Below are positions 1 through 36,109 of a stretch of DNA of 64,000 bases, one piece after another. Origin of the DNA: Anaeramoeba flamelloides (Eukaryota; Metamonada; Anaeramoebidae). Position 1 is the first letter of the stretch. Each line of letters opens with the position of its first letter. The position numbers and the translations under genes were made by a program. The notes under the pieces were generated by a model that saw nothing but the letters and a program-made list of their open reading frames with translations, was not told the origin of the DNA and did not search any database. The stretch is from positions 4,960,001 through 5,024,000 of the forward strand of contig JANTQA010000057.1 of NCBI GenBank assembly GCA_027625915.1, written 5' to 3'.

Positions 1-852
1 AAACTATCACAACATTCATATTTATTATTTTTTAACGAAAACATTTTTTTTACATTTTTTTTTTCCAAATTCTTTTTTAAAAATATTTTTTATCAAAAAA
101 AGCAAAAACAAAGAATATTGCTTCAAAGATTAAAGTAAAAGATTGAATTATCCAAATCAAAACAACAATTACAAAAGATTCAACTCAATGAAAAACAAAA
201 ATATGATTAAAAAAATAAAAGTAAAATTCTAAAATTGATTTTGGGTTTTCAATTTGATTGGTGTAAAATAAATTGTTTTAAAACCCAACAAATCCATCCA
301 ATAAATCTATATTTCTGAAGATAATTTAAAATATATCATACTATTTTTAACCATACTTGAGTTGGATGAATTATATGATAAATTGGAATTAAAATTCATT
401 TTGGAAATTCTTTACAAATTGAAAACAAGTTATTTCTCAATAGAATTTTCCATCTAAAAGACTAGAATACACGACAATGTAATTATTTTGTTTAAATTAC
501 ATTTATTTTACGAATAACTTACCCCCATACAAAAAGATATTTATCATGAAAAAGTCAATTCTACCAAAAAAAGTAATTTGAAGTACATTAATGTTGGAAA
601 AAAAAATGATTTTTTTTTTACAAAAGATTTTTTTTAAAAAATCTTCAAAAATTTTCAGAATTACCAAGCCATCAACTTATAAATGGGCACCTTGAATAAA
701 AACTTGATTCAATTTAAGTAATTGTTGTTGAACAACAAACTTATCTTCAAAACACATTTTTTTTGAAAAATGAACAAATAAATAAACAAAAATGCATCAG
801 CCATCCAGATCAAACCAATTACTGAAATGTTGTTTTTATTTAATTGTAAAAA
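1..852. repeat. Dispersed repeat R1 (copy 1), then AT-rich DNA
   Basis: Bases 1-480 align over much of their length with 44440-44900 and with part of 15170-15560. Shared landmarks are a run around 'ccaataaatct.tatttctgaag' near 300 and 'ttggatgaa..' near 362. At 668-746 on the minus strand there is a 25-residue open stretch (MCFEDKFVV...), too short to call a gene. Confidence 0.6.
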
Positions 853-1794
853 TTATCTTTCCTTTTCATCATCCCAAATAATAACCTCAGGCAAATTTTT
901 ATTTCCCAATCTATCTTTTCCACAGGCGTTGTAATGAAAATAAAACACTTTAGATACTATCAACCCTATTGAGATTCTATACTTGGTTGTACTCGGCTAA
1001 ACACTTTTCTAAACAACCTGGCATACTAGAGTAGAAATTCTAATTTTAAAAACCTTTTATCAATAGGAGAACCATACACCAACAAATTAAGAAGGATTGT
1101 TTGAAAAGCTTGTTATCCTCTTTTTGTTCTTCTTCTTCTTTTTCTAATTTTTCCTTTTTAGAGAAATTTCAAAACTAAAGTTGAATGGTTTGTTTTTTGA
1201 TCGATTACTTAGGTCTAATGCAAAATTTTCTTTCTTCTTGCGAAAACAACTTTTAAAGATAAAAAATCCGTTTTTTTAAAAAAAACTCTTCTATTCTGAA
1301 TTTCAGCACATTTTCTCGATTGGTTGTTTATTGTTTGTGTTTCTTTATATTTTGAATTTTAATTAATTATTTCAAAAAAATTACTTTTCTTTTTTTTTTT
1401 TTTTTTATTATTGAAGAGAGGCGATCCAACAAAATTACCTTCTGTTTGCCGTTAGGTTTTTTTTAATTTAAGAAATAAAACGAAAAATCCGGATTTTTAG
1501 TTAAAATTTTTTATCCTAGATATAATGTAGGCAAGATTATGGCACATAAGATAGATTTTTTTTAAAAAAAATGAAAAGATAAAATCTAATTGTTCAACAA
1601 AGAAAAGAAAAAGAGAAAGAAAATCCAGAAAGAATTAAAAGTAAAAAAATAAGAAAAAAAAGTAAAAACTTTATTGAAAAGTTGTTTTTTTGTACCCCGA
1701 GTGTTGAATGGGTTGGTGGTTGTTTCCTTTTATGTAGAATTTTTGGATCACCACCATAATTTGATTTAATAAAGAGATCTAAATATTTGAACAA
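853..1794 (-). CDS. Two exons of an unidentified minus-strand gene (3' end)
   Basis: I do not recognise this gene. Exon 1794-1696 is exactly 33 codons, bounded by CTGTAG before and GTACAA after. Exon 996-853 is 47 codons and a TAA, preceded by TTTAG. Both junctions are phase 0, and the splice signals match the GTA...TAG pattern of the other introns here. The last exon reads ...KVFYFHYNACGKDRLGN... and ends IIWDDEKER. Its pattern of aromatic and small residues is weakly like the last strands of a fibronectin type III domain, which is only a guess. Upstream exons were not found. The pair could instead be the remains of a dead gene. Confidence 0.4.
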
Positions 1795-4700
1795 CTACAG
1801 ATCAAATTAAATAGGTTACTTTATTTGCTTTTAATTTAGAACAAAAATTACTTTTCTTTTACTCAATTTTATTTTTGCTGAATTGTAGAAATAAAGATAC
1901 AATTAATAGTTACAAATCTTTTATTTTGGTTTTATTTTCCAAGAAAACACAATTTTTTTTATTCGGAGATCTGAAACAAAAAGATTTTCAAATTGATTTA
2001 TTATTTTTGAACAAAATACATTATTAGACGTGTTTTATTAGCGGAAAACAGTACATTTCCGTTAAAACCCCAACTTTTTCGGGAAAAAAACTGATCCTTA
2101 AAAAATGAGTCTTTTATGATTAAGTAACAATATCCGCGAATTTATCACATTTCAATGGAAAACTCTAATAATTCGGAGAATAATAAACTCTTTTTCAGTC
2201 AAAGGGGACCAGCTTTATTGAAAAAATAGAACATATTCTATGATTTTAATTCATTATTCTTCTCAAAATAAAATTTAGATTTTTAAATCAAAATTATTTT
2301 TTCGAATTTTTCAAATTTTTTATTTTTTTTTAATAAATCAATTTTTTTTTGTTTTCTTTTTCTTGTTTCTTTTTTAAAAAGTCAATTTGAAAAAAAAAAA
2401 AAATATTTGAAACTCAAAATTAACATTAAGAAAAGTCAGGATTTGTATTTTCTTTTAAAATTCATACACTTACAATTAAAAAATCTTATTGTCAACAATT
2501 TTAATTTTCTAAAGAAATTGAGAAATTTTTCACGAGAAGTTCCAATGAAAGTGGACTAAAAATTTTTTACAACATTTTTTTTTTTTTTCCAGAAGGTTTG
2601 TTCAGGTATTTCTTTTATTAGTATCAACCTTAACTCAAGTTTATTATTTCTCCTATTTATAAACAATGGTGTGGTTGTTTATTCTTTATAAAAAAATTGA
2701 ATTTTTTATTTTTGGCTTTTCCCTTTGAGTGGAATGGAATTTAGTTCTTCCCACCATAATTAAAAATAAAAATAATTAACAAGTATTAAATATATCGAAT
2801 ATTAAACATAAAATTAATAAATAAATTTACTTTTAATTTATTTTTTATTGATTAATTTTTTACTTTTTTTGACTTACCTTTTGTAATTTGTTGTGGTCAA
2901 AAGATTATATTCGGATATATTCTACTTCCATTTTTATTAAAACATTAATATATTAAGTTAAATAATTGATTTTAATGATTCAATTTGAAACACACCAAGG
3001 AACTCAAATGTTGTAAAATGTACATACTCCTTAAAAAAGTGCATTAACTCCAGTTCTAAAGTATATAAGTATTTATAAGTGCTGTATAGTGTCTATGTTT
3101 TTTTTTGTTCTTTTTTATTTGTTTTAATTTTATTATTATTAATTTTATATGTATTGGAAAATCACTTAACTACTTTTCTAATCATAACAATAATACAAAT
3201 AAAACCTAATGTCATTTTTTTTTTTTATTTAAAAAATTAATTGATTTTCCAATATTGACAATAATTAAAAAAAAAAATAACAACAACTGTCACGGAATTT
3301 TCTTATGAATTGAGTAAAAGTATTAATTTTACACAATTTTTCTAAATTAAAAACAAAAAACCAAAAAAATACAAAACTAAATGTTGATTTAATTGAATTC
3401 TTATTTTTTTCTCAAAGATGTATCAAAATTTCTAATCAAAATTTTAACTAAAAAAAAAAAAAAAAAAAACACTATCTAGTTTAAAGAGACTTCAATTTTT
3501 TGTTTAAAATTTAATGATTTTTGAATCAAAATTGAAACTAGAGAAAACCAAAAATCATTTTTTTTAAAAAAAATGTATCCAAAATTTCATAAATTTTTAA
3601 ATTGTCTCTCAACTTAATAAAAATTCAATGGTTTACAAGCGAAACTAGTACAATTCTTGTTATTATTTAATAAATAAAATCAATTTTTTTTATCTACATC
3701 CATATTAAAAAACCTTTAAACATATTTTATTAAACATCAAAAAATAAATTTAATCGATCATACAATTACTTTTATTTAAAAATACATTTTAACACTCCAG
3801 GAATTAGCTTTCTTTGTTAAATTATTTATTTATACAATATAAATCTATACATTTCACACTGAAAAAGAATGATATGCTTGTAAAAAATTTATTTTCTTTC
3901 AATTTTCAAAATAATAACATTACGAACTATACCTGATATGCTATCAAAAAAAAAAAAGAATGAATTAAAATGTACAAATAGAGTATTAAAAAGAAAAAGG
4001 AGCAAAAATTAAATCTATAAAGTAAAATTAAAAACTTTTTTTTTTATGAATTCTTTCAACATTAAACAAAAAAAATTAAAGAAATACTCCCATTTTAGTA
4101 ATTCATTTTTTTTTTAAAAACTCAAAACTTTGATGACAAATAAAAAATGCACCAATTCTCTTGAAGGTAAATTTTGGTTTAGAAAACACTTAAAAATAAT
4201 TTGTTTGATAGATTTTTAAAAAAACATTATAAGATCAATATATTAAAAAAGTCTGATTAACTCGCTATTATATTTCATCAGATTTTTTAAGTTTCTTAAT
4301 TTATTTTCAGAAAGGATAAAGTTTTTTTTTTATTTATAATTGATACACAAATTTACCAAAATTTTTGATAAAAAAGAAAAATCATATTTCAAATAATAAT
4401 CAACACAACTCTATCCCTTGATTAATAAAATAAATTTTATCAAATTTACTGATTTTTTTTTCCAAACCAAGTAATTTTGATATCTAAAGATCAAAATTAA
4501 ACCCTTTTCGAATAATGATAACTCATTTAAAAAAGTAAAATTAAAAAATTATAATTATCTTTTTTGAAAAAAGAGGAAATTATTTTCTCTTTAATACACT
4601 TATCTTGTTTTATAGGAGTGTAATTAAATTTTTATTTTTAAAAAGAAATTACTAAAAAATTCTACAAAATAAAATTAAAAAAAAAAAGGGAAATAGCCAT

Positions 4701-5093
4701 TTTAAAAAAAGTAATAACTTTATTTTTATTTTTATGATATTGTCAGGATCAAAACTTTTTTTAGAGGTTTCTGTTAAAATAAAGTGCGAGTACTTTTTTT
4801 TAAAAAGGGAATTTTCTTCCCACATCAACCTCTACCTCACATTTATAGTCCTCGCTTTATAAAAATAGAAAGCTTTCGGAAAGTTTAATTCTGAAAAAAT
4901 TTACACTTTTTTTCAAATAGAAAACTTCAAAACAGTTTTACAAAAGTCCACACTTTTTTAAAACGACTGTAAATATTCCAAATAAGATTTCTCAACTTTT
5001 GAATTGGCAAAAATTATTGCAAAATAGTTTATTGTATTGAATCATAGTATTAATCAAACAATAAATTTAATTTTGTATTCTATAATATAAAAA
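1795..5093. repeat. Gene-free AT-rich DNA with dispersed repeat R2 (copy at 2184-2745)
   Basis: Bases 2184-2745 match 39355-39925 in the same orientation, 62885-63345 in reverse, and in part 28200-28360. Shared words include 'ttgtcaacaattttaatttt' and 'aaagaaattgagaa'. The rest is homopolymer-rich. If the hydrogenase has upstream exons, this stretch is partly its first visible intron. Confidence 0.6.
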
Positions 5094-5110
5094 ATGAAAT
5101 CTAAAAATAG
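5094..5110 (+). other. Ambiguous 5' junction of the hydrogenase gene
   Basis: ATG 5094 has an A-rich context typical of starts here, but its frame departs from the WD40 frame after about 12 codons. One extra A in the run of five A's at 5119-5123 would join the two frames. Alternatively the TAG at 5108-5110 is the end of an intron, and earlier WD40 exons lie upstream. The in-frame residues after the TAG, TGTKKQVFKGH, match the linker between WD40 repeats, which favours the intron reading. I found no WD40-coding exon between 1 and 5090. Confidence 0.5.
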
Positions 5111-8100
5111 ACTGGCACCAAAAAGCAAGTATTTAAAGGGCACGCGGATTGGATTTTTTGTATGGAGCATGATGAAGATAAAGGTATACTTTATACAGGA
5201 TCGAAGGATAAAACGATCAAGCTATGGGATACAAAAACTGGAAACAATATTCACACATTATTTGGACACGAATATGCTGTTGTTGATCTGTGCTTTTATA
5301 AAAATTTCTTGTATACTGGCTCGTGGGATGGAAGGATCGGTATCAACAATTTAAGGAAAATAAAAAAAATGCCAGTTTTTATCGATGCGCATGAGGGCAA
5401 AATTCGGTGCCTTCAAAGATATGATAATTTATTATACAGCGGAGGGAATGATCAAACAATTCGTGTTTGGTCATTACAAAACAACAAATGCAAGACAGTA
5501 TTTAAAGGGCACAATGCGCCAGTCCACGAGATCATTATTCCAAACCAAAATATCACTATCTCATGTGCTAAGGAAGCCACGATTTGCCGATGGCCATCGT
5601 CAATGATCCTCAAGCAGAAATCACAACAAAAAATGAAAAAACTATTAAAAAAGGAATCACATTTAATTGAGATGAATAGAAACCATTCCTATGAATTAGG
5701 ATCAAAGGCCGGTGGCAATAAGGAAGTGAACATTATCATTAATGGACAACATTTTAAAGTCAACTCAAAATTAAATATTCTGGAAGCATGTAGGCAGGTT
5801 GGATTTGAAATTGCGGCCTTGTGCTACCACCCCTCGCTGGGCCCCGTGGGTACTTGTAGATGCTGTGTTGTGGAAATTAAAAACAAAAAAACAAGCAACT
5901 TTCAGAGCGCATGCTCCTGCGCGACAGATATATGGGAAGGTTTGGAAATCTCCACAGACTCGCCTTCAATTCGGAAACAACTTATGAGCTCCCTTGCAGA
6001 TTTAAGATTAAAACAAAAAAATAGAAAATTGATTATGAAAATGGTTGGGAACCACGATACAAGAGGAAACTCTCGTTTAAATAAATATATTGGAAAGGCA
6101 GAGAAAAGATTGAAATTCAAACAACAAATGCAAAAGCAGCAAAATGAAGACTTTGACGAGGAAGTTGAGTCTTTGTTGGAAGATTTGATTGGAAAGGTTT
6201 CAAATAAATTTGTTGATAATTCAAATCATGCCATCCAAGTTGATCATACCAAATGTATTGATTGTACAAGGTGTGTCAAAGTTTGCTCAAATATTCAAGG
6301 TATATAATTATTTTTATTCTTTATTCGATACCACCCATAGGCGAAGAAATGGACAGTTGTAGGTTTTTCCAAAATCTTGGCAAAATTTGATATTTTCTTT
6401 AATAAAAGGAGAGAAAACATCTACATATCCCTGTTCACACCCCCCCCAAACCAACCCAGAAAAGTTCAAATTTTGTCAACACAACTAGAGTTAGAATTCG
6501 AACATATCTAGTTTTTAAAAATTGTCACCCTTTAATCTATGATATCCAAATGGATACAGAAACCCCCTTGTCTTTTTTAATGATAATTAGTATTTAAAAT
6601 TTTTGTATTTTATCAAAATCTAAATATTTTCTCTGCATTAATAACAAACCCTTTCCCTTCTGATACATAAACATAATAGGAATGAATGTGTATTCGTCGG
6701 TAGCTACATTGACAGATTCTTTAATGCCAGCGTTTAACACCAAAGGATTATTTTTGAATGAATCGATGTGTATTGCATGTGGGCAATGCTCGTTGTATTG
6801 CCCGTCTGGTGCAATTACAGAATATGACCAAACCAAAAATTTAGAGGCTCTTTTGAAAACAAGAAAAAAATTAGTTATTGCTGGCATTGCGCCATCTTGC
6901 CGATTAACCATGGCTGAATTGTTTGGATTACAGCCAGGTGATCTAACAACTGGGCAATGCGTGCACATATTAAGATTATTAGGATTCCATAAGGTGTTTG
7001 ATGTCCAGTTCACAGCCGATTTAACGATTATGGAGGAAGGAACAGAATTGTTACATAGGCTAACAGATCCAAAGGCCACATTACCCATGTTTACATCATG
7101 TTGCCCAGGATGGATTAACATGGTTGAAAAGCAGTATCCAAAATTAATCCCACATTTATCCAGTTGCAGGTCTCCACAGCAGATGTTTGGATCTATTATT
7201 AAAAATTATTATGCTAAAAAGGTCAGAGTCTTGCCACAAAATATCTTTTGTGTAACTGTAATGCCCTGCACTGCCAAGAAGCAAGAATTACTAAGGCCCC
7301 AGTTTCAAAACCCAAAAACAAAATTTAAAGATGTCGATTTAAGCTTAACTGTTCGGGAAATCGGCAGGATGATCAAACGGAGAGGAATCGGATTGTCCCA
7401 ATTAGAAGAAAGAGACTTTGATAACCCCCTAGGGAGTTCCACCGGATCTGCACAGTTATTTGCCTCATCTGGTGGCGTTATGGAGGCAGCACTCAGAAGC
7501 GCATACTGGCTGAAAACAAGCGAAGCATTCCCAAAATTGGAGTTCAAGCCCGTTAGGGGCCTAGAAGGCATTAAGGAATCAAGCTTAGATTTTGATGGCC
7601 GGCAATTAAAAATCGCAGTGGTATCCGGCGGCAAAAATATTCATAAATTCTTGGAGCCCTGGGGCACGACATCGTTCAACTATGATTTCATTGAAATTAT
7701 GGCCTGTCCAGGCGGATGTATTGGCGGCGGTGGGCAGCCTCGATCCAACAAGAAAATTTTACCATTGAGGATCCAATCATGCTACAACAGAGAAAAGGCA
7801 CAGAACACAAGATCGAGCCACGAAAATCCACAAATTAAAAAACTATATCAAGAGTGGTTGAAAAAACCTTATGGCAAAATCGCAATCAAATTTTTACATA
7901 CCACTTATTCGCCTTTTCAATTCCAAACCGATTTGTCATCAAACACAAAGTCCAAGTACAATGAAAGAAATCGGGGACTAAACCCTAAAAACTCACTATT
8001 GATTTTGTTTGGGTCACAAACAGGCACAGCTCAAAATGTAGCTGAAAAAATCACCCAAGCAATTAACAAAATTGGGAAGAAAATTCGAATCATGGAAATG

Positions 8101-8466
8101 AACGAGTACGAACACCCAATTAATTTGAAAGACGAAAAATTGGTAATATTCGTCTCTTCCACTTTTTGGGACGGATCATTCCCAGAAAATGCGATCAATT
8201 TTTATAACCAACTGAAAAACCTCCAACCAATGTCTTTAAATAAATTACAATATTGCGCCTTTGGGCTAGGATCAACCTCATATACTAAATTTAATAATGC
8301 TATTAAATTAATAGATTCTAAATTAAAGGAATTGGGTGCAAAAGAAATAATGAAAGTAGGCTTGTCAAATAGAGAAGACAAAAATGGTTATGCTACCACT
8401 TTAAACCCTTGGCTAAAAACTCTTCATCGAATATTCCGAAAAAATTTTAGAAGGCAATGGAAATAA
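5111..8466 (+). CDS. WD40 - [FeFe]-hydrogenase - flavodoxin fusion protein (5' end unresolved)
   Basis: Reversible proton reduction to H2 is the expected reaction. Exons are 5111-6299 and 6680-8466, joined in phase 1 (Gly) to give about 991 visible residues, numbered here from Thr at 5111. Residues 7-162 hold four WD40 repeats (GSKDKTIKLWD, GGNDQTIRVWS). Residues 207-270 are a [2Fe-2S] ferredoxin domain with Cys238, 249, 252 and 268. Two [4Fe-4S] motifs follow (Cys382/385/388/392 and Cys427/430/433/437). The H-cluster domain carries TSCCPGW (Cys537, 538), MPCTAKKQE (Cys593) and MACPGGCIGGGGQP (Cys739, 743), so all H-cluster ligands are present. Residues about 832-987 are a flavodoxin-like FMN domain (FGSQTGTAQN, SSTFWDGSFPENA). 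No FAD/NAD(P)H reductase domain follows. The start is not settled: the frame opens after a TAG at 5108-5110 that looks like a splice acceptor, and ATG 5094 lies in another frame. Family assignment is firm. Cell location and electron partner are unknown. Confidence 0.95.
6300..6679 (+). other. Intron in the hydrogenase gene (380 nt)
   Basis: The intron begins GTATAT at 6300 and ends AATAG at 6679. Splicing joins the codon halves g|ga to give Gly and restores the standard hydrogenase run CSNIQG-MNVYSS between the two [4Fe-4S] motifs. It is AT-rich with a C-run near 6441. Confidence 0.93.
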
Positions 8467-8921
8467 TTATTTCATAATATGACGATTTTAAATAAGTCAT
8501 TAATTAATTAATTCTTTTTGATATCTATAAGTCAATAAAAATCATTATGAAAATTTTCATCTTATTATGTATTAACTGAAAATTTTAATATTCAACAAGG
8601 AGTTACTTCTGTTATTGCTTTTTTTTTTTTTTTTTCAAAAATTTGAATCATTAAATATATCTTAATATAGGGGGATAAGGATTTATTGATATGGGTTGGA
8701 TAGGGAACTATCCAATCTGTTAAAGAGAGAATTTTGAAGTGACTAAATTTGAGACTTTCGATTAAATGAGTATCTAAAGATACAGTAATCAGAAGTATTT
8801 GAATCTTAATTTAGATTTCTTAAATATAGGGGGATAATTTTTTTTTAAAAGAATTTGTTTTAATTAATATACACATCTAAATTTGATAAGAATATTGTTA
8901 AACCTAGCCCCTGATTAGCTA
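8467..8921. other. Hydrogenase 3' flank
   Basis: AT-rich flank with a long T-run. The phrase 'aatataggggGATAA' occurs twice, near 8663 and 8824. On the minus strand about 57 codons are open across 8630-8810 with no start codon. I see no gene. Confidence 0.4.
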
Positions 8922-9449
8922 AACCCCATTCCAAAAATTTGGACACACCCAAAATCAAAAATAGGCAAAAAAAAAACCCAATTTATTGTATTTTTCCAAA
9001 CCTAATATAAAACAACATTTAAGTTGCTCAGTATTAATGTTTTAATAAGTAATCATTTTAATCCAAATAAAAGAAAAAAATATAAAACTCAAAAATAAAA
9101 ACAGGTGTGTCCAAAATTATGAAACGAGCGGAACAAAAAATGTATTCGTAAATTTGTTGAAATTTTAGCAACAATTGTTGATCGATCAAATGATAAGATA
9201 TCATCAACTGATTATATGTGATTTTCCAATTTAACAAACTCAACACTAACCTTCTATCAACCATTGAAAAAAATTCTCAGATCTAACCAAACAGATTACG
9301 TAACTGGCAAAAAAGGAAATGAAAACAAAACAAAAAAGACAAAAAATGAAATAGTTTGTAAAATCAAAATTCTTTCCAAATTGAATTTAAAGTGCAGTAA
9401 TGATGTTCTTTCAACTGTTTAAACTGTGTCCAAAATTTTGGAATCTAGT
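8922..9449 (+). mobile_element. Tc1/mariner-like MITE, copy 1 (528 bp)
   Basis: The ends are imperfect inverted repeats: left AACCCCATTCCAAAAATTT..., right the reverse of AACTAGATTCCAAAATTTT.... TA lies directly on each side (8920-8921 and 9450-9451). The inner word CCAAAAATTTGGACAC is typical of Tc1/mariner termini. No transposase is encoded. A 68-codon minus-strand frame inside (9264-9058) resembles nothing I know. Confidence 0.85.
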
Positions 9450-9451
9450 TT

Positions 9452-11186
9452 ATTTTGGCACAACATTAAAACAAGAATCTTTTACTAAAAAATGAAAAGA
9501 ATGAAGAGATTTTCAACGATAAATTTAATTTGTTAGTTGCTCATATCAAAATAATGTTAAGTTCAATCAAAGAGTAGTAAATTCGCTTGGTTTTCATAGG
9601 AAATTTGACAAAAAGAAGAAAAACCATTTTATTTTTGTGTAAAAAAAGGAAATTTCATTTTTATTTTTACCTTGTAAAAATACAACTTCTTTTTTTCTGT
9701 ACTGAGTGGAAAACACATTTCTACAATAAAGAAATTTAAAAACCAAAACTTGAATCAAAAAAAAATGTTCAAAAAATTGAAAAATTAAAGATACTAAATC
9801 AGGTTTATTTTGATTCTTTTCACAAATAGAACTAGTGAATGACATTTTCGTTTCCAAGTTTCAATATTACTTGTTACTCAAAAGAACCTTTCTTCTGTAA
9901 TTTTATCATAATTAAAATTTTTAAATAATGTAAAAGTACCTAATTCCATAAGATCTATTATTTAAGTTCTTGATTGGTTTAATTTCTTTTCAAAATTGAT
10001 TTCAATAATTTTTTTTAAGTTTTGTAAGAAAATTTTATTTGAAATGGATATTTATAATGTGTAATTTATATTTTTAATTGTTTGGTTGTATTTTTCATCA
10101 CATGCCCAGGAAAAGATTATTATATGACTTTTTTCTAAGGTTACTGTTAAATTAATTATTAAAAAAAGAAAAAGAAAATGTTTGAAGTGGACTGAAAATT
10201 TTTAAAATGAAAAAATGGGAAGATATTGTTGTTATGTTTCATATTTAATATTTTTTATCCAAAATAAAAGTATTTTCGTTTTTTATTTATATTTTTCTCT
10301 GAATCATTACCAAAAAAAAAAAAAAAAACTAATTTTTTTGATTATTACACTCAATATCATGAAAAAAATAAATTATTTCATTTGGTACTGTGAAAGATAA
10401 AATTTATCAGAATCAAAAGGAAATAAAAATTATCAAAATGTTTAAAAAAGAAAATATATGTAAAGTATGACCGTGGATAAAAACTTAGAAAATCTTGTTC
10501 ATTATTTATCAAAATTATGAAATTTGTTGCTCTTTTCTTGAATTTTTCTTTAAAGCTCTTATAGTAAGAAAACTCAAGTTAATAAAGAAAAAATAATAAT
10601 AATAAATTGAAAAAAAATACTTAAAAGAGTAAGAAATATTTTTATATAAATTGGAGAACCTAGAGCGACACTCTGAGAAATAATATAAATGGTTTTGTTA
10701 ATTTAAAAGGATTGAATAAAATCAAATATTTTACTCACTTTTTTTATTAAATTAAAAAAAAAACCAACAACAACATAATACTAATTATTAATTACCGATT
10801 GTGGAATTTTTATATGTATTGATAATCTTTATATTGGGTTTTTGCCCCTCATGTGTATTCTAGGGATTTGTCGTCAAGTACTGTCAAGTGCGTAGGTTTT
10901 CTTAAAGTTTTCTTTTTTATTTGTAATATATATATATATATATATATATTGATTTTCAAAATAAACAGAAAATTCAAAAAAACCTAAAGGCACTTTTTTT
11001 TAATTTGAGAAATAAAAAAAAAAATTTAAAAAATTTTCTTTTAATTTCTAAAATTAAAAAAAAACTAATATTGGTTTATCAAAATTAGGAAGAATTTAGT
11101 ACAATCGAGGATTTCACTCGATCCTTTTCAATCCTGAAATACCTAAGGATAATGGATAGTTTTTAATTTGGTCATGTAAATGATAG
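9452..11186. other. Spacer between the two MITEs
   Basis: AT-rich DNA with an (AT)n run at about 10926-10949. A short open stretch at 11089-11166 (plus strand), preceded by ATTAG, reads EEFSTIEDFTRSF... and ends in TAA. It could be an exon relic. I see no gene. Confidence 0.4.
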
Positions 11187-11188
11187 TA

Positions 11189-11717
11189 AACTAGATTCCA
11201 AAAATTTGGACACAGTTTAAACAGTGGAAAGAACATCATTACTACACTTTAAATTCAAATTGGAAAGAATTTTGATTTTACAAACAATTTCATTTTTTGT
11301 CTTTTTTGTTTTGTTTTCATTTTCTTTTTTGCTGTTACGTAATCTGTTTCATTAGATCTCGAAAATTTTTTCAATGGTTGATAGAAGGCTAGTGTTGAGT
11401 TTGTTAAATTGGAAAATCACATACAATTGGTAGATGGTATCTTAACATTTGATCGATCAACAATTGTTGGTGAAATTTCAACATATTTACCAATACATTT
11501 TTTGTTCCGCTCGTTTCATTATTTTGGACACACCAATTTTTATTTTTGAGTTTTATTTTTTTTTCTTTTATTTGGGTTCGAATGATTACTTATTAAAAAA
11601 TTAATACTGAGTAATTTAAATGTGGTTTTATATTAGGTTTGGAAAAATACAATAAATTGGTTTTTTTTTTTTGCCTATTTTTGATTTTGGGTGTGTCCAA
11701 ATTTTTGGAACGGGGTT
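11189..11717 (-). mobile_element. Tc1/mariner-like MITE, copy 2 (529 bp), inverted relative to copy 1
   Basis: This is the same element as 8922-9449 in opposite orientation, flanked by TA at 11187-11188 and 11718-11719. The two copies match along their full length with scattered substitutions and small indels, so they are separate insertions of one family or a duplicated, inverted pair. Confidence 0.85.
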
Positions 11718-11719
11718 TA

Positions 11720-12434
11720 TTATATATATTATAATTAATTTTCTTCTCTTTTTTTTATTTGATACAATTTTCTTTCATCACTCATTTCTCTAAATTTATA
11801 AATAAAAACCCTTTTCTTTCAAATAATGAGATTTCTTTCCAATTGATAAATAAAAATGTTAAAAAGGGCGTTGATTGTTACTTTTAAAGATTAAAATATA
11901 TTTATATTTTTTATTGTTTTGAAAGTTTCTAAATAAATAGAATTATTTTTTTTTAGATATCTAAAACTATATTTATCAAAGTATTATTATATTCAAAATA
12001 CGGTTTTGAATTAGAGTTATTATAATCAACAATTATTTGTTTGTTTTTGAAATAAAATCAAAAAATTTTCATTTTTTTCTTATTCAGGGATCAGATCATG
12101 GGAAACTCTATATTAGAGAAAGGTCTCATCAAAAAAGAAAATGATTAAACCCAATTAGGATTTAAAAGTAAACTATAATTAAAGTGTTTTTCCATTTTTT
12201 CTTTTAACCTCAAAAGCTCCATACTATTTAAAAGAGGCACTAAATCAAGTTATTTTAATTTGAAAAGTTAATAGTGTGATTTTTTTTTAAAAAAATATTT
12301 GATTATTAAAAAACATAAATAATTTTATTGGTAATATGAACAAATAGTTAAATTGGTGAAGAAAAATTAAAAATATAAATGTAAAAATAATAGTTAATTT
12401 ATTTTGAAATATTAGTATTTTTTAAACATATATT
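11720..12434. other. Gene-free AT-rich stretch
   Basis: This is the downstream flank of the minus-strand coiled-coil gene. I see nothing supported here beyond a 16-codon open stretch at about 12099 (MGNSILEKG...), which is too short to judge. Confidence 0.4.
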
Positions 12435-13532
12435 TTAATTAATTTTTTCATTTTCTTTTTTATTGTTATAATTTTTCTCATCAATTGCTGTATTGTTAGA
12501 ATTTGTATTTTCTATTTCAACCTTTTTTTCATGTTTACTTTGAATAGGTAAATTGTGAATTTCTTGTACTTTATTTTTCTTAACTGTTGTTTTTGCATCA
12601 GTTTCTACCTCTTCCTCTTCCTCTTCCTGCTTCTCTTTTTCTCTTTCTCTTTCTGTATCCTTTTCTTTTTCTTTTTCTTTTTCTGTTACTTTACCTTTCT
12701 CTTTTTCTTTATCTTTCTCATTTTCTGTTTTCTCAACAATTATTTCTTCTTTGTAGTGCTTTCTTAATTTTAAATTTCTTTTTTTTTCCTCAAGCTCCCT
12801 TTTCATTTGGGCGATTTTTTCTTCTAATTCTTTGATCTCCTTTTCTGTTTTTTTTTTTTGTTTTTGTGTTTTTTCAAAGCTTTTTTTATTCTGAACTGGT
12901 TGTTTTTCATTGTTTGTTTCATTTCCTTTTTTTGGATCTGAAAAGAATTTTTTGCTTGCTGAATCTATTCCTTTCACTAATGATTTGAATTTGATTTTCG
13001 AGTCAAGCTTTGGGAAAGTAAATTTGTTCTGGACAGAACTTTCAATTTCGAGACTATTTTTTGTTTGTTGACTTTGAAGTAATTGTTCGTTCAGTGCTTT
13101 TTCTTTTGATTTTTGAAAAGTCGCTAATTGTTTTTCAATTGTATTTAATTCAATTTTATTTAATTCTCGATCTAAATAACGCATTTTTGTGGAAATAATT
13201 CTTAGTCTTTGCGAGATCCTCGTTACACTTGAATTGATTCGTCTTAATTGTTTTAAATTTTGGCAGAATGTTTCCCATTCGTTTGTTGTGTTGTTACAAA
13301 CTACAGAAACTGACTCAATACAATTGTCAGTTTGATCGGCTTTTTTGGAAATTTGCATTGTGTAATGATGAAGCTTGTCCCACAAAACTGCATCAATTTT
13401 TTTAATTTGAAGATACTTACCAGAAATCGTTTCATCTTTATAAAGGGTTGGTGTCTGAAAAGTTATCTTCTTATTCTCTTCTGTTTGTTCGTAGTCGTTG
13501 TCTTCAGATGTTATTGGTTCATTGTTTGTCAT
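12435..13532 (-). CDS. Coiled-coil protein with K/E-rich tail, paralogue of the gene at 17896-18903
   Basis: Unrecognised protein of 365 residues, single exon, starting at ATG 13532 in an A-rich context. Residues about 45-135 form a helical block with two Trp exactly 35 residues apart (WDKLHH... and EWETF). The second half is a charged coiled coil (KEIKELEEKIAQMKRELEEK) followed by a low-complexity tail of K, E, D and T. The same Trp spacing and block order occur in the minus-strand gene at 17.9-18.9 kb, so I infer a paralogous pair. The helical block is loosely reminiscent of small BLOC/BORC-type subunits, but I cannot support that. Opposite-strand frames here are mirror images of the K/E tail. 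Confidence 0.85.
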   Translation of the reverse strand: MTNNEPITSEDNDYEQTEENKKITFQTPTLYKDETISGKYLQIKKIDAVLWDKLHHYTMQISKKADQTDNCIESVSVVCNNTTNEWETFCQNLKQLRRINSSVTRISQRLRIISTKMRYLDRELNKIELNTIEKQLATFQKSKEKALNEQLLQSQQTKNSLEIESSVQNKFTFPKLDSKIKFKSLVKGIDSASKKFFSDPKKGNETNNEKQPVQNKKSFEKTQKQKKKTEKEIKELEEKIAQMKRELEEKKRNLKLRKHYKEEIIVEKTENEKDKEKEKGKVTEKEKEKEKDTEREREKEKQEEEEEEVETDAKTTVKKNKVQEIHNLPIQSKHEKKVEIENTNSNNTAIDEKNYNNKKENEKIN

Positions 13533-17895: not shown

Positions 17896-18903
17896 TTATT
17901 TCCAAACATAATTTCCTGAATTTCTTCTTGCAATTTTTTGAAATTCAGATGCCCATTTTTTCATTACAGGTTCATCTACTTCATCATCACTTGAATTAGA
18001 GAAGTAACAACTCATCATTTTTCTTTTTAATTTTTTCTCCTTCTTTTTCTTTATTGTCTTTTGTTTCTTGTTTTTGGTTGTCTGTCAACTGTTTTGTTTC
18101 CTTTTCTTTTTCATCTACGGAAAGCTCTTTTTTCATCATTTCAATTTTTTTTTGTAATCTTGCCAGTTTTTCTAATTTTTTTTTTCTTTTTTGCTCCTCT
18201 GTTTCTTCACTTTGATTTTTGGTTTGTGGTTGTTTTTGCTTTTGCTTTTGTTTTGGGTTTTTTTTTTCTTCTTGTTCTTGTTCTTTGTCCTTTTTTATCT
18301 TGAAACGATCTTTTTTTTTTTTGTTTTTTGTTTTGGTCTTTGATCCTTTTTTTCTTTTTTCTTTCTCTTTTGTTTTCATCCCGTCTTCTGTTTGTTTTTG
18401 CAGTTCTTGTTTGTTTTGCTGTTCATTTTGTTTCTTGTTTTTTTCGTTTTGTTTTTTCTTGTTAGTTGTCATTATTTTTGGATTTTTTTTTTTTTTTTTT
18501 TTTTTTTTTGGTTTTTTTCTTTTCTTATCAAGATTTTTAAGGACGCTTTTTTTTGTGTTGTACGGATCTCTTCTTCTGTTTGATCAAGAGAAAGAGCTTG
18601 GTACATTTGTTCCAAATAATTGCTTTTCTTTAAGACATTTTTTAATAGCAGATTGCAAGTCTCTATTCTTTTCGAAAATTTTTTAATACTAGCCAGTTCG
18701 CTATGAAATTCAATCCAGTTGTGTCGTGTTTTGTTTGTTTGTTGATGTAAAACTTGAACTTGGTCCGCAACGAAATCACATTTTAATGCAATATCCTTTG
18801 TGTTATTATTAACTTCTCGCCATTGTTTTATCTCATGAGTTTGAAGTTCACCAAATGGATCGCTTGGCTTTGTTTCTTTTGGTTCTTTTTTTGTTTTGCT
18901 CAT
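17896..18903 (-). CDS. Coiled-coil protein, paralogue of 12435-13532, frame broken at A-runs
   Basis: Unrecognised protein starting at ATG 18903 (MSKTKKEPKE). Two Trp 35 residues apart (QWREV... and HNWIEF) in a helical block match the gene at 12.4-13.5 kb, again followed by a K/E/Q-rich coiled tail. The frame is interrupted at a run of 27 A's (18483-18509 on the plus strand), where the open frame passes to one that continues to 17996. Near 18000-18085 a third frame takes over for a further stretch (SCYFSNSSDDEVDEP... to VWK) ending in TAA at 17896-17898. Long A-runs are prone to sequencing or assembly slips, so I read this as one gene of about 330 residues. A decaying pseudogene is the alternative. 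Confidence 0.6.
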
Positions 18904-20614
18904 AAAAATTAAAAAGTAATAAACTCCAAAATCAAACAAAAACGAAGTTGCGTTGATGTGGGTGGATACAGAGTTGTAAGGAAAAATAAAAAAATGTCAA
19001 GTTTCACATTAAAAATTCTTCAACAATTTTTGGATGATATTGGATTGTTTTTAATCTAGTACATTATTTTATCCTTGAATTCATTCTTATTTCCTTTTTT
19101 TTTTCTCTAATCAAGACAATGGTTCACAACTGAATAATTTTCAAAAATTTAGCAACTATTCACCAAAAAAATTTGTTTGTCTAAATATATCACAATAGAA
19201 TTTATTGTTTGTAAAGTTGAAAATTCACTATAAAATAAAAATATCAAGACAATCCTATATATTATTCAAAATTTTATATTCAAAAATGTTATTTGTAAAA
19301 ATTGAATTTTTTATATTCACTTTTTTTAAAAAGTTCACAAATTCAATTTTTTTTTTCTTATTTTGAAGGGAGGAAACAAATTTCCACTTATCACCTAGTT
19401 GAGGTTTTTTTTTTTTTTGGGAAATAAACTGAAAATTAAAGAAATTCCTGATAATTTCTTAAAATCAAAAAAAAACATGGAACTTTATTACAATTAACAA
19501 CACTGAACTTCATTTATCTACTCTTCCCTCCTTTCTAAATTTTTGTTTTAATATTTCAATGAGAATCATTATTTTCTTTAACCTTTGCAGCTTACAAATT
19601 AAATATTGGATTTTTATTTTGAATAATATCGAAAAGATATAATACATTGCTTTATTATTTTTTTTAATTTCGATTAAATCATTAATCAAAAATTTCTAAT
19701 TTTTTACTTATTATTGAAATCCCAAAAAAAAAAAAAACAAAAAAAAAAACTTTCGATATCCTTGTCTATTTCTAAATCATATCAAGCATGTATATTGACA
19801 ATTCCCAAATTCATATTTCAGAACAAATTGGTAAAAAACTCAATTGTTATCAATCTATAAAAATCAAAAAAAAAAAAAAAAACCTAAATAACAAACAACT
19901 GGTATTCAAAAATAACGGCTTTACTCCCTTTTTTAGATATTTTTATCTTAACTTTAGTAGATGAAATCTATAAATTAATATACATATTATCAATCCAGGT
20001 TTTCATTATTGTTTCATTTCGAATTAACTCTATTTGTTTATATTTAAATTATATTGAAAAACTATTTTGTTGAAAGATAAATAATAAACAAGAAAATTTA
20101 GTTTATTTTTTCTTAAGTTAAGAGTATCTTGAAACAACTAATTTTTTTATTATTTTTTGCTGATAATATTAATTTATTTACATGTCAAAGAACAAATTTA
20201 TAATTCACAGAAAATAATTATTTTAATAATAATTTTTATATATCATAGAAATAGCGGAAACATGTTGTGATATTAAAAAAAAAAAAAAAGAAATAAAAAC
20301 AAATCTTTTGTTTTCTATTACATTTACCATTTATAAGGGATATTTCTGATGTTCAATATTGTGGATTTAATTTTAATATTAAAAGAAATTTATAAAAAAA
20401 ATAATTGAATATAAAATTATTATTGTTTAAATTACCTTTCAATTTTAGTCCAAAGTTGTAATTCATCGTGAAAACTATATAAAATAAATCTAAAATAAAT
20501 CAGGGTGGAAAGAATAATAATATAATTACATCATATTTTGAATTTTTTTCAATTACCAATTCATTCTTTGAAAAAATATAAATCAAATAAGAATAAAATA
20601 TTTGTAGATTTAAT

Positions 20615-21795: not shown

Positions 21796-24700
21796 TTAGT
21801 TGTTTTTTTGCTTAAGTAGGTTATTTTTATTTTTGATCCTACTTTTGGTTTTAGTTAATTTTTTTGAGGTGTTTCTTGAAGTAAGATTTTTTTTTTTTTT
21901 CAAGGTTCTATTTTGAAGAACATTTTCTTTGTTTGAGATTTTTGATGCTAGTTTGGATTTATAACTAGTAGCTTTTTTCTTTTTCTTTTCACTTTGTAAC
22001 TGCCTTAATTTCCTCTTGGTGGTTTGGGAGGTTTTCTTTTTATTTGTCAATTGCAAATACTTTGAATTTTGTTTTAATTCGATTTCAGGTGTTTTTATTT
22101 CGATCTTTTCGGTGGGTTGATTCTCATGATCAATGCTGTCACTGCTGCTATAATCGTTCTCATTGCTGTCGCTGGTCTCTAAAAAAAAAGAACGGGGCTT
22201 GTGCTTGGTTAACTTTAAATTTTTCATAATTTTGTCAAAATCACTTTTTTCAACAGTATTTTTCTGTGGTGTGTTGCCCGAGGGGTGGTAAATTTTTAAT
22301 TGCAATTGGGATGCAAGATCGTTTCCGAGTTGATTAATTGAAGAGATCAATTCCAATGAGTGTAATTTCGATGATTCCTTCTGTTCTTTGACTAAGTTGT
22401 CTGAATTGGTAATGTCTTTGTCGATCGATTCCAAATGTGTTTGCAATTGCAATTGGCTGCTTTGGGACAATTGCACGATACCCTGGGAATTGGTTATTAA
22501 TTCCGAGGTCTTTTTATTGTGGCTTTTAGAGAGGTGCTCCAATTTATCGTTTTCTTGGTTGGATAAGGTGACTAAATTTTGATTGTGATCTTTTAAATTT
22601 TGAGAGATTTCGTTCGTGAAATTGGTAAAAACCTTTTTCGAGGTAACTGTGCTTTCGTTTATACAGTCCTGTAAATTATTTTCAATTTTTTTTAAATTTT
22701 TGTCCAAAGATCGTTGGTTTATTTTGCAATCCTGTAATAATTTTTGTAAATTATTTTTATTTTTCTTTTGGAATTTTTTGATGTTTGTGGTAAATGTTTT
22801 GAGTTTTTTTTCATTTCGATTGAATTTTTTGCTGATCCTTGTTGTTTCCGTTTCGAATTGTGTTTGGTTTTCTTCAAATAAATTATTGACAATATTTTTG
22901 ATTTGTTCAACTAATTTGTTTTGTAGTTTGGCATTTTCCTCCTCAATGTTTTGCTTATAATCGTCAAGCAATGTCTTTGTTTGATTTTCCTTTTTATTTG
23001 AATGGGTTTCAAAGGCCTTAAAATGGAAATCCAATGAATCGAAATTTAAATTTTGATTTTTGTTGTAATTATCAATCAATTGGAAATTGTTTTCAATTGT
23101 TTCCTTTAATATATTTTCAAAGGTGCTTTTTAGGTTTGACTGCTTTTGGATAATTTGGTTCAATTGCCTTTGGATGAGTGTACATTTTTCTTCAATTTGC
23201 TCATTGATAACAAGAAACGACCCCTTGAAATTTTTTGATAGCTTGTCAAGGTTGATTGATAATTTGTCTTGACTGACGTCCTGGAATAATGTTTGATAGC
23301 TCTCGGATAATGTGTTTAATTGGTTCACGGATTTCGAGATACTTGAGAGTTCTTTATTATTTAAGTCGATAAAGGAATCAAGGTGTTCTTCGATTTTATT
23401 GAAATTCTTAATTTGCGTGCCTTGGTGCGTGGAGATATCCTCATTGATCTTCTCTAATTGGCCACTGATTTTCACTTTGAATTGCTTCAAATTCTTTTTA
23501 TTTAATTGGAACAGGGTTTTTTGCGTTTCAATTTTTGTAAACAATTGATCGTTTTGGTCGTGAAGGAGGTTGTTTTTTTCAACTAAAGACTTGACCATGT
23601 CGAGAGTCAATTTCTCGTTTTTTGCCATTTTTTTGAGTTGGCTTGCCAATTGCTCCTTCTTTTCTTTCGCCTTATTGATTTCTTCTTTTAATTTCACATT
23701 TTCGTTTTTCTGTTGCTGTAAAAAATTCCGAAATTCTTGCTCGCTTTCTTTATATTTCTTCTTCTCCTTTTCCATGTGCTCATGGATTTCGCTGATCCCG
23801 TTCTTCTTCCTTAACAAGATCAATTCTTCCTTCAATTGTTCATTTTCATTTTTGAGTTTCACGATCAGTGTGTTCTTGGTGACCTTTTGGTTGACGATGG
23901 GCTTGTTTTTGATCTTTTTCGCATTCTTTGCATAGTCCAGGCTGCTGAGCGTCTCTTCGATGTTGCCCGAGGATGGAGAAATGTTTGTGATTATGCACGT
24001 CTTTGTCTTGCCCCCGAGCGAGTCTTGCAAGATCCTCGTCAGTTTGGAATCGCGGTAGGGGATATACTTTTGCTTCTGAACCAAGTTGTGGATCACCCTC
24101 CCGAGGGTGAGTAGCGATTGGTTGATTTTCCCCGCTTCCTTTTGCTGTTGGTTTTTGGCCCCACTTTTCTTGATGTTTTCAGAGCCCGCTAAATCGACAA
24201 AATTCAACTTCCCACATTTCACAACTTCAATCCCGTTTTTGCTCACAGTCTTGGTGCGAATGTTGAACGTGAAAATCGTATGTGATCGGGATGAATTCTT
24301 ATTCATTTCCGTTTTGGCAGTCTTTCGATACGAGATTGCTTCAAATAAAATGTCTTCAATGTCTTTTAAATTGTTGATTTCAATTTCTTTCAATCCGTTG
24401 ATTATGATACCACCATTTGCCTTGTCGTCATAAATCTTTAATAAATTGTGATTTGTTTGTTTTGTTTGTTGATTCTTTGTTTCTTTTTCTTTTCCTTTTC
24501 CTTTTCCTTTTCCTTTTTTTTGCGAAAAGCTGATCAGATCGTTGATTTCTTCATTATACAACTCGACCAAGGATGATTTGATTTGAAAATCTATCCCTTC
24601 AGTTTTTAATTCTTGTAATAAAAAGGCGACAGATCTTGGAATTAAGCCTGCTGTTTTTTTTTTGAACCACGGTACTTTTTGTTTGTTTTCAGATTTCTTA

Positions 24701-25159
24701 CCAGTCGATCCCTCCATCGTATAAGTTTTTCCCTACATTTTTTTTTTTTTTTTTTTTTTTTTCAGAAAAAATGTAATTAATTAACGTATATATGGAAATT
24801 TATGTTTTTTTACTTCCTTTTTTTGTTTGTTTTTTTTTGAAAAGAAATCTAATTACACTTCCTGTTTGACCATACGCAAAAACAGTTGCATTAAACCCAT
24901 TTAATACATCTTTTAACATTGGTTCCATTATGCATTCAAAAACCTCTTCTTGGGTGGTTTCTTCATCAAAAATTTGATCAAAGGTAAATCTTCGAATATT
25001 CTCTCTTTTATCAAGAGCTCGTAGAGTGTTGGATTTGGATTGAATACAAATTTGTTCATCATTTTCTTTTTCTTTTTTATTCTGTGGCCTTACTCTGACA
25101 ACAACTTTAATTGGCACAATTTTTTCCGTTTTGTTTATGTCTTGATACAATTCTGTCAT
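21796..25159 (-). CDS. Kinesin-5 (BimC/Eg5-type) motor protein
   Basis: ATP-driven plus-end microtubule motor; kinesin-5 proteins are tetramers that slide spindle microtubules apart. Exons are 25159-24857 and 24732-21796, phase 0, giving 1,079 residues. Motor motifs: P-loop GQTGSGKT (97-104, split by the intron after GQTGS), switch I NKNSSRSH (245-252), switch II DLAGSE (281-286). The family-typical neck NKPIVNQ is at 377-383, followed by long coiled coil. The run from GLKEIEINN through SLLTLGRV to ILQDSLGGKTKT follows kinesin-5 closely. Oddities: a low-complexity KGKGKGKGKEKE insertion at about 173-186 in a motor-domain loop, and a very basic, Lys-rich C-terminus (about 990-1079). A Cdk-site BimC box was not clearly seen. 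The stop is TAA at 21796-21798. Confidence 0.95.
24733..24856 (-). other. Intron in the kinesin-5 gene (124 nt)
   Basis: On the minus strand it begins GTAATT and ends TGTAG, with a run of 24 A's shortly before the acceptor. Removing it reunites the P-loop GQTGS|GKT. Confidence 0.95.
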
Positions 25160-25423
25160 TTTGATTATTTATATTTCTTTCTTTTTTTGCTTTGAAATAA
25201 AAAGTAAAAAATGTTAATTGATCTTACAAAGTTTTGATTTTTTTCAACAAACAGTCAATGAATGTTTCTTTTATTTATCTGTTCATTTATGATGTTCTAT
25301 TAAGTATGAATTTACTATATTTCAAAATAATAATGAAATTTTATCAATTTTTTTTTCCAATTAAATTATTAACGGTTGGAATTGATTATTTTTTTGATTT
25401 GATTTTTATTAATACTATTTGAT
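25160..25423. other. Kinesin 5' flank
   Basis: AT-rich presumed promoter side of the kinesin gene. I see no recognisable motif. Confidence 0.3.
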
Positions 25424-34573: not shown

Positions 34574-36109
34574 TTAATTATTTATATTTTTCTTTAAATT
34601 TTTCAATTTTAAAATATAAAGATTATTAATATGGTCAGCTAATTCTGTCCAAGATGTTTCCCTTAAAAAACGATCAAGCGTAATGTGGGAACTGTTGTTC
34701 CCCCATTGGAAATTATATAAAGCATCTGGGTCATAGTATGTATACTTTATTAATAACGAACAAGCTTTGAATAATAATTGAACATCTTCCGACTTCTTTT
34801 GGCTCATGTTCGTCGGGACGTGTCTACGGATGAGTAAAACAAGATAAGAAGAATTGTCGCCCGTGGTGGCTTTGGGATCGAATACTTGTAATTTACATAA
34901 GTATTTTAGGGTTTGCATGGTAAATTTATTTGAGATGATCAAGAAATGGAGTCCATTAAATTCTGAATTGTGAATTTTTATGGAAAAATCCTCCACTACT
35001 TGTAATTCTTCAATAAGGTATCTTAATAAATTTACATTACCAGAAAGACAAGACATCAAAAAAAAATTGCAATTGCTCTGGTCTACTTGCTTTTCATCAA
35101 AGATCAAATTCAATTTTTTTTTCTTTCTCAAATATTTAAGAAAATTAAGATCTCCCTTCATACATACCTTCATTAAGAAAGTGCCTCCTCTCTGGTCAGG
35201 CTTATTGATATCAATGTTATATGTTTGTGTTATCCAATTAAAATAGATTTTCTTATACTTTGTTGGGAAGGAGGCAATTTCCCTTAACAAATATTCCTTT
35301 GATCCGCCCTTTGCCACAAAGACCTTGATTAAATTGTCCAAGACTTTTTTTATTGATTTCGCAGAAGAATTAATGTTGAGCTCAAAAAGCATTTTGGGGC
35401 AATTACTTGCGCTTTGCTTCAAGATCAACTGTTGACAGAATTTCTTATTTGACAAGCAAGTGCGTAAAACACCAATTAAAGACGAAAGCGCATCCGTGTT
35501 AAAGTCTGCCTTAGGTTGGTATTGGAAATCATAGGAAAACAATAACCCGATCACATCAGAAAAATATTCAATACTCGGGAAGATCTTCTTTTCAAACACC
35601 AACGAGCGGCATAAACGGTAGATCAGGTTCTCTCCAAATTTGTCGTCCAGCTGAGGATCGCACCCTGCCTTCAGGATCCTTTCAATAATCTTTGTTGGCG
35701 TTCCCTTTCGGATCACATCCAACAAAAGTTGATTTGAATTGTCATGGTTTGGAGAGACACCAATGCCAAGAAAATAGAAAATCACATCGATAGACCAGAT
35801 GAAGAGATGGCCAGAGTGAATGCTTTTGTCTCTCCATTTCATTTTTGGTTTGTAAATTGCTTCTCGCTTTTCAAATAAAGTGTTTTGAACAAGGCGATAC
35901 TTGCCTGCCTCCTTGTAATGTGGAAGCGACTGAACTACTGAGGAGAGAGCCAGCTTAATTATTCCGTCGCTTGGTATGAAACCCTTCAAATATTTTTCAC
36001 TGAATGTGTCTATTTTGTTTTTTTGATAGTTCGTTTGATACATAATGGGAAATTGTTGTAAAAAGCTGTTGTGATCAAAATTGTCGTCCTCTTCATTTAA
36101 AAAAATCAT
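34574..36109 (-). CDS. Ankyrin-repeat-like protein (511 aa)
   Basis: Single exon. I start at ATG 36109 (MIFLNEEDD); a longer reading would need a TTG start. Degenerate ankyrin-type helical pairs are visible at about 120-170 (LLLDVIRKGTPTKIIERIL, then AGCDPQLDD) and at about 300-410 (GGTFLMKVCMKGDLNFLKYL, SCLSGNVNLLRYLIEEL, GLHFLIISNKFTMQTLKYL), each pair spaced about 33 residues. The repeats are far from consensus, and the N-terminal 110 residues match nothing I know. A protein-binding role is inferred from the fold only. Low-complexity tracts are absent, unlike most neighbours. Confidence 0.8.
   Translation of the reverse strand: MIFLNEEDDNFDHNSFLQQFPIMYQTNYQKNKIDTFSEKYLKGFIPSDGIIKLALSSVVQSLPHYKEAGKYRLVQNTLFEKREAIYKPKMKWRDKSIHSGHLFIWSIDVIFYFLGIGVSPNHDNSNQLLLDVIRKGTPTKIIERILKAGCDPQLDDKFGENLIYRLCRSLVFEKKIFPSIEYFSDVIGLLFSYDFQYQPKADFNTDALSSLIGVLRTCLSNKKFCQQLILKQSASNCPKMLFELNINSSAKSIKKVLDNLIKVFVAKGGSKEYLLREIASFPTKYKKIYFNWITQTYNIDINKPDQRGGTFLMKVCMKGDLNFLKYLRKKKKLNLIFDEKQVDQSNCNFFLMSCLSGNVNLLRYLIEELQVVEDFSIKIHNSEFNGLHFLIISNKFTMQTLKYLCKLQVFDPKATTGDNSSYLVLLIRRHVPTNMSQKKSEDVQLLFKACSLLIKYTYYDPDALYNFQWGNNSSHITLDRFLRETSWTELADHINNLYILKLKNLKKNINN

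Follow-up and report, generated by a model that had tools for sequence, protein, structure and literature searches.

A predicted WD40–[FeFe]-hydrogenase–flavodoxin fusion and its gene family in Anaeramoeba flamelloides

Introduction

Hydrogenases joined to flavodoxin-type electron carriers have been described in several anaerobic protists. In Blastocystis, the [FeFe]-hydrogenase (HydA) is followed by a flavodoxin domain, with neither flavin adenine dinucleotide (FAD) nor NAD(P)H modules, and the authors propose that pyruvate:ferredoxin oxidoreductase (PFO) passes electrons to this flavodoxin (Stechmann et al. 2008, PMC2428068). The 'long' hydrogenases of Trimastix, Paratrimastix, Pelomyxa, Trichomonas, Pygsuia and Stygiella, as characterised in the accessible text of two reports (PMC10703272, PMC10579272), are of the NuoG-HydA-CysJ type, in which an N-terminal NuoG-like part with a [2Fe-2S] domain precedes HydA and a C-terminal flavodoxin-type part. 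Here, we describe a gene in a 64,000-nucleotide stretch of the genome of Anaeramoeba flamelloides (assembly GCA_027625915.1, contig JANTQA010000057.1, positions 4960001-5024000; hereafter the window, with position 1 as its first letter). On the plus strand between 5111 and 8466 it encodes WD40 repeats, a [2Fe-2S] domain, an [FeFe]-hydrogenase and a flavodoxin in a single predicted protein.

The protein differs from the NuoG-HydA-CysJ enzymes, so far as the accessible text describes them, in ending after the flavin mononucleotide (FMN) domain without an FAD/NAD(P)H part and in having a WD40 propeller in front. The accessible text on the Blastocystis enzyme, which we compared by description and not by sequence, mentions no WD40 part (PMC2428068). 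An earlier note on this DNA, made from the letters of the sequence, had recognised the hydrogenase-flavodoxin combination as known and the WD40 fusion as unfamiliar. The first point stands; as to the second, the full-text literature that we searched contained no WD40-hydrogenase fusion, and the novelty is provisional because eukaryotic protein collections lay outside that search.

Results and Discussion

Structure of the fusion gene

Open frames, Pfam matches and splice sites identify 5111-6299 and 6680-8466 as two exons of one gene. The frame at 5111-6304 is open for 398 residues and encodes WD40 repeats (PF00400, E = 2.7e-24) followed in-frame by Fer2_4 (E = 3.8e-11), and the frame at 6679-8463 matches Fe_hyd_lg_C (E = 1.6e-92), Fe_hyd_SSU (E = 2.6e-16) and Flavodoxin_1 (E = 2.7e-27). 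Splicing from 6299 to 6680 removes an intron that interrupts a Gly codon and yields 991 residues plus the stop codon. Two later acceptors for the donor at 6300 also leave the frame open; the acceptor ending at 6679 was chosen because it is the one that the paralogs conserve. The earlier note had presented 5111..8466 as one stretch in which four WD40 repeats run into a hydrogenase with all H-cluster cysteines and a flavodoxin. It is indeed one gene, and the fusion with its full set of cysteines is borne out by the in-frame Pfam matches, the splicing and the ligand alignment given below, although the intron at 6300-6679 had gone unmentioned.

Two further points of that note need correction, the left limit at 5111 and the repeat number of four. 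Position 5111 is not the gene start since a splice-acceptor AG precedes it in all 15 close copies of the gene (see below); translation starts at 5162 or at an out-of-frame ATG at 5094 were dropped on the same ground. Two more exons, A and B, lie to the left of the window and bring four additional repeats, so that exons A, B and C together hold eight as counted by eye. Both exons are likewise present in paralog L030. The introns A-B, B-C and C-D measure 622, 8012 and 380 bases, and the chain assembled so far from exons A-D comprises 1152 residues. No WD40 exon was found in window positions 1-5110, neither by Pfam in the three forward frames nor by codon bias. The gene parts are as follows.

About -4006..-3649 (left of the window), plus strand: exon A, three WD40 repeats; GT-AG borders, in-frame join.
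About -3026..-2902 (left of the window), plus strand: exon B, one WD40 repeat; GT-AG borders, in-frame join to exon C.
5111..6299, plus strand: exon C; open frame, conserved AG before 5111, donor GT at 6300.
6300..6679, plus strand: intron C-D; GT-AG, position kept in 14 of the 15 close copies.
6680..8466, plus strand: exon D, the last exon, including the stop codon at 8464-8466; open frame, conserved acceptor.

A family of 22 fusion genes

The host genome comprises 254,072,379 bases on 76 contigs, of which C57 carries the window. It contains 48 exon matches to the hydrogenase domain PF02906, which we grouped into 37 hydrogenase-like loci. Exon C gave 104 matches, many of which are ordinary WD40 genes. 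Twenty-two loci constitute a family made up of the window copy, 14 close copies (L027-L040) and 7 divergent copies (L049, L050 and L052-L056). All 22, distributed over 15 contigs, have the WD40 block, the [2Fe-2S] domain, the hydrogenase and Flavodoxin_1 in the same order and on the same strand, and in four of the divergent copies (L049, L052, L053 and L054) a single open frame spans the WD40 part, the [2Fe-2S] domain, the L3 motif and the flavodoxin P-loop. The earlier note had raised separate genes in relatives as the contrary outcome; every flavodoxin-bearing copy carries a WD40 block upstream. The fifteenth close copy, on contig C72, has stops in the exon C frame and was left unspliced. 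Among the other loci, 11 are short hydrogenases by frame length, and four of the 37 (C76:3142705, C33:6957191 and the split C43:1742395 and C48:18923787) fell outside the family analysis. L046 on C76 has weak hydrogenase similarity, with no WD40 or flavodoxin match.

To compare the histories of the two halves, we inferred one tree from the WD40 part and another from the hydrogenase-flavodoxin part, each with 22 copies. Seventeen of the 19 splits were common to both, as compared with a maximum of 4 in 2000 label shuffles, and the two halves have therefore travelled together. The ratios of nonsynonymous to synonymous substitution frequencies (dN/dS) for nine pairs of close copies ranged over 0.028-0.139 in the WD40 part, 0.027-0.062 in the [4Fe-4S] and H domains and 0-0.326 in the linker between the WD40 and [2Fe-2S] parts; two values for the [2Fe-2S] domain and one for the linker joining hydrogenase and flavodoxin were not computable. 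At the level of these predicted coding sequences, the data demonstrate selection on every part of the protein.

An artefact, whether from two adjacent genes taken as one or from mis-assembly, is extremely unlikely in our view. The one-gene reading is drawn from DNA sequence, and exons A and B are located 8 kilobases (kb) from exon C. Against an artefact, the WD40 and [2Fe-2S] parts share one open exon, the 22 copies agree without exception, four of them have no intron between the parts, and each part is under selection. The sequence itself shows the fusion and the 22-copy family.

Catalytic site and iron-sulfur chain

The domains encoded in the window are listed below, with residue numbers 238-437 counted along the spliced chain from 5111.

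5123..5599, plus strand: WD40 repeats 5-8 of eight, by PF00400; limits set by eye.
5606..5719, plus strand: Lys-rich linker from the propeller to the [2Fe-2S] domain, where conservation is lowest, at 29-63% identity with 13 copies.
5720..5962, plus strand: [2Fe-2S] domain with Cys 238, 249, 252 and 270, by Fer2_4; the four Cys are kept in all 18 bacterial HydA.
5963..6235, plus strand: segment at the position of the FS4C site, ligands replaced by D316, N320, L323 and E350, by alignment with the 18 bacterial HydA.
6254..6286, plus strand: first [4Fe-4S] motif, Cys 382, 385, 388 and 392, by alignment with bacterial HydA and paralogs.
6769..6801, plus strand: second [4Fe-4S] motif, Cys 427, 430, 433 and 437, by alignment and Fer4.
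6871..7731, plus strand: [FeFe]-hydrogenase domain, by Fe_hyd_lg_C, with residues assigned by alignment.
7753..7911, plus strand: hydrogenase small-subunit segment, by Fe_hyd_SSU.
8002..8412, plus strand: FMN-type flavodoxin domain, near those of diflavin reductases, by Flavodoxin_1.

We aligned the hydrogenase domain to the enzyme of Clostridium pasteurianum (CpI), whose numbering is used here, and take C300, C355, C499 and C503 to be the cluster ligands and C299, E279, E282, S319 and R286 to form the proton path. All of these, as well as K358, are intact in the window copy and the 14 close ones. The corresponding motifs in the window are TSCCPGW (C299/C300 equivalents, 7099-7104), MPCTAKK (C355, 7267-7269) and ACPGGC (C499/C503, 7705-7719). 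This residue set supports the assignment of the predicted protein as a catalytic [FeFe]-hydrogenase. It shares with the CpI type (PDB 4xdc and 9rj9; E about 3e-99 for the H domain) the cluster ligands and the proton path, and differs in lacking the FS4C site and in the added WD40 and flavodoxin parts. As bacterial comparators we used 18 HydA loci, with open frames of 566-626 residues, obtained by scanning genome contigs with the hydrogenase exon; a scan of viral contigs found no relatives. The residue alignment kept 17 of the 18 (L008 was excluded by the motif filter), and 15 of these (L001-L007, L009-L015 and L017) read TSCSP for the TSCCP of CpI, with Ser at the C300 position.

Nar1 is a hydrogenase-like protein that works with a separate WD40 protein, Cia1, and offers a parallel in which the two components are separate. 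By description, the window protein is set apart by its [2Fe-2S] domain, its full complement of H-cluster ligands, its proton path and its flavodoxin; identity with Nar1 was dropped given the [2Fe-2S] domain and the full proton path.

Of the four clusters in the accessory domain of the CpI type (M3), the predicted protein has the [2Fe-2S] and both [4Fe-4S] motifs intact and lacks the FS4C site (a [4Fe-4S] site with His-Cys3 ligands). The FS4C ligands are kept in 17-18 of the 18 bacterial comparators, and the loss of the motif is evident in all 21 readable copies of the family (all 14 close copies that were spliced, among them that of the window, and all 7 divergent ones). Among the short hydrogenases, the four that we examined of the 11 (L042-L045) keep FS4C, reading HNQEC[TS]SC in the [2Fe-2S] exon, and the last FS4C Cys opens the next exon in the 10 that were read. 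Loss of the His-ligated site would leave the [2Fe-2S] cluster as the sole accessory entry for electrons.

The divergent copies keep C300, C355, C499, C503, E279 and S319; E282 and K358 are lost in all seven and C299 in six. A role as sensors or as structural partners is possible for them, and they constitute a natural set of hydrogenase-like proteins with cluster ligands kept and an incomplete proton path, useful for asking what role such a protein has without turnover. The earlier note had contained neither this branch nor the family or the loss of FS4C. The pattern also bears on a distinctly unlikely alternative, in which the protein works in the reverse direction, oxidising hydrogen gas (H2) and reducing flavodoxin partners, or reports H2 through its WD40 part. 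The residues lost from the divergent copies would suit a role without turnover, and WD40 parts usually bind proteins. The window copy and the 14 close ones, however, retain every proton-path residue checked, which counts against this alternative.

Electron donor and proposed mechanism

Among solved structures, the flavodoxin domain is most similar to NADPH-dependent diflavin oxidoreductase 1 (4h2d, E = 1.6e-22). The absence of an FAD/NAD(P)H module, stated in the earlier note, was confirmed: the three forward frames of 8464-12400 gave no Pfam match, for which reason a hidden downstream FAD exon was dropped, and none of the 10 FAD_binding_1 matches in the genome falls at a hydrogenase locus. 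There are 15 PFO genes. One of them (L057:74-3559; C57:4946574-4950059, plus strand) shares the strand of exon A and terminates about 5.9 kb before it. Of the H-cluster maturases, HydG is represented by five gene copies, one of which passes the cut-off together with its neighbours.

From these features we infer, with about an even chance of being right, a docked, H2-evolving hydrogenase that is probably cytosolic and receives its electrons, perhaps from PFO, by way of its own flavodoxin arm. The N-terminal eight-repeat propeller would bind a partner, be it a protein, a scaffold or a membrane-bound complex, and thereby fix the enzyme in place. Electrons from the oxidation of pyruvate by PFO would first reach the FMN in the flavodoxin domain at the C-terminus. 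This domain would move on its linker as a tethered shuttle and hand them to the [2Fe-2S] cluster; from there they would travel by way of both [4Fe-4S] clusters to the H-cluster, the site of H2 formation. The cytosol is a likely location because the copies of the fusion, as far as seen, start with the propeller, whereas the N-termini of the short hydrogenases L042-L045 begin with MLN and continue with a stretch ending in [FL]SSVG that by eye has the look of an organelle presequence. The earlier note had proposed that the WD40 repeats may dock the enzyme and that a separate protein supplies the electrons, and both inferences fit this picture.

Several observations weigh against this mechanism or parts of it. 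The PFO neighbour is found at 1 of the 22 copies and hence is just a hint, although 0.047 such pairs within 18 kb would be expected by chance. Upstream of exon A, the first exon with the start codon, and hence any targeting signal, was not found. Two HydF-like frames cover positions 20-386 of 392 and score 237 bits, below the cut-off of 325.55. Candidate reductases do exist: three frames combine Flavodoxin_1 with FAD_binding_1, and in a fourth case the pair is divided between two frames. Finally, a tree that also contains the bacterial hydrogenases and the short ones of this genome places the 15 close copies with the short enzymes (support 0.986) and the 7 divergent copies beside the bacterial L016 (support 0.588, branch length 1.4). 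Long-branch attraction is likely, but not shown, to be the cause of this placement, and since the divergent copies group apart from the close ones, it is not proven that all 22 go back to one origin.

The candidate reductases make it conceivable, if unlikely, that the donor to the same protein is a reductase of the diflavin or FNR type, encoded separately and dependent on NAD(P)H, and that the enzyme serves to reoxidise NAD(P)H in place of PFO-reduced carriers. The similarity of the flavodoxin to the FMN domains of diflavin reductases speaks for such a donor; none of the 22 copies is joined to an FAD domain, and in the Blastocystis enzyme the arm has been proposed to work with PFO, and both points count against it.

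The propeller as a docking module

The number of WD40 repeats depends on how they are counted, with Pfam passing six individually and a simple motif script detecting four. Because there are eight by eye, the predicted protein likely forms a closed propeller. The four repeats within the window match, in the PDB, designed Ika proteins, one of which has just four repeats. Ika4 forms dimers, and a half-propeller dimer, suggested by the matches to the designed Ika and Tako proteins, was considered and then dropped once the upstream WD40 exons had been found. For the same part of the protein we also weighed a simple dimerisation or stability module with no docking role. That no partner is known, and that the four-repeat part matches the Ika proteins, would be compatible with it; the eight repeats make a closed propeller likely, and we judge a stability module improbable beside a propeller that docks the enzyme.

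A genome scan with exon C identified six genes outside the family with the nearest WD40 stretches (34-39% over the WD40 part). One of these, L051:780-2798, combines WD40 repeats with a BAR_3 domain by Pfam and an SH3-like end by eye; its likeness to the fusion is confined to the WD40 part, and it has the BAR_3 and SH3-like parts in place of a hydrogenase. It is the single non-family WD40 sequence in the tree, too few to prove descent of the propeller.

Anaeramoeba is reported to harbour symbionts that reduce sulfate and are kept next to the hydrogenosomes (PMC11550330). One could imagine a cytosolic H2-delivery system in which the propeller, as kin to that of a membrane-shaping WD40-BAR protein encoded by this genome, brings the hydrogenase to a particular membrane, for instance that of the symbiosome, and H2 is thereby set free close to the sulfate-reducing symbionts, with the seven divergent copies acting as H2 sensors or dimer partners; as a complete scenario, we find this quite improbable. 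More generally, the fusion family suggests that H2 production is placed at chosen spots in the cell and not left free. If the docking is real, an anaerobic eukaryote would set the site of H2 formation by joining the hydrogenase permanently to a propeller and an electron carrier.

Other genes in the window and genome

The rest of the window contains several predicted genes on the minus strand.

12438-13532, minus strand: frame with a coiled-coil look; no match of note.
18475-18996, minus strand: frame with a similar coiled-coil look; weak LOH1CR12 match (E = 0.012), below the cut-off.
21799-25168, minus strand: kinesin motor gene with a short intron.
34577-36232, minus strand: ankyrin-repeat frame.
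40448-41683, minus strand: class I/II aminotransferase.

The base composition of the window is 76% A+T. For Anaeramoeba flamelloides, genomes rich in A+T and a count of ribosomal protein genes above 1100 have been reported (PMC11550330), and the 12 candidate genes for ribosomal protein uL16 in the genome analysed here are in line with the ribosomal protein gene expansion reported there.

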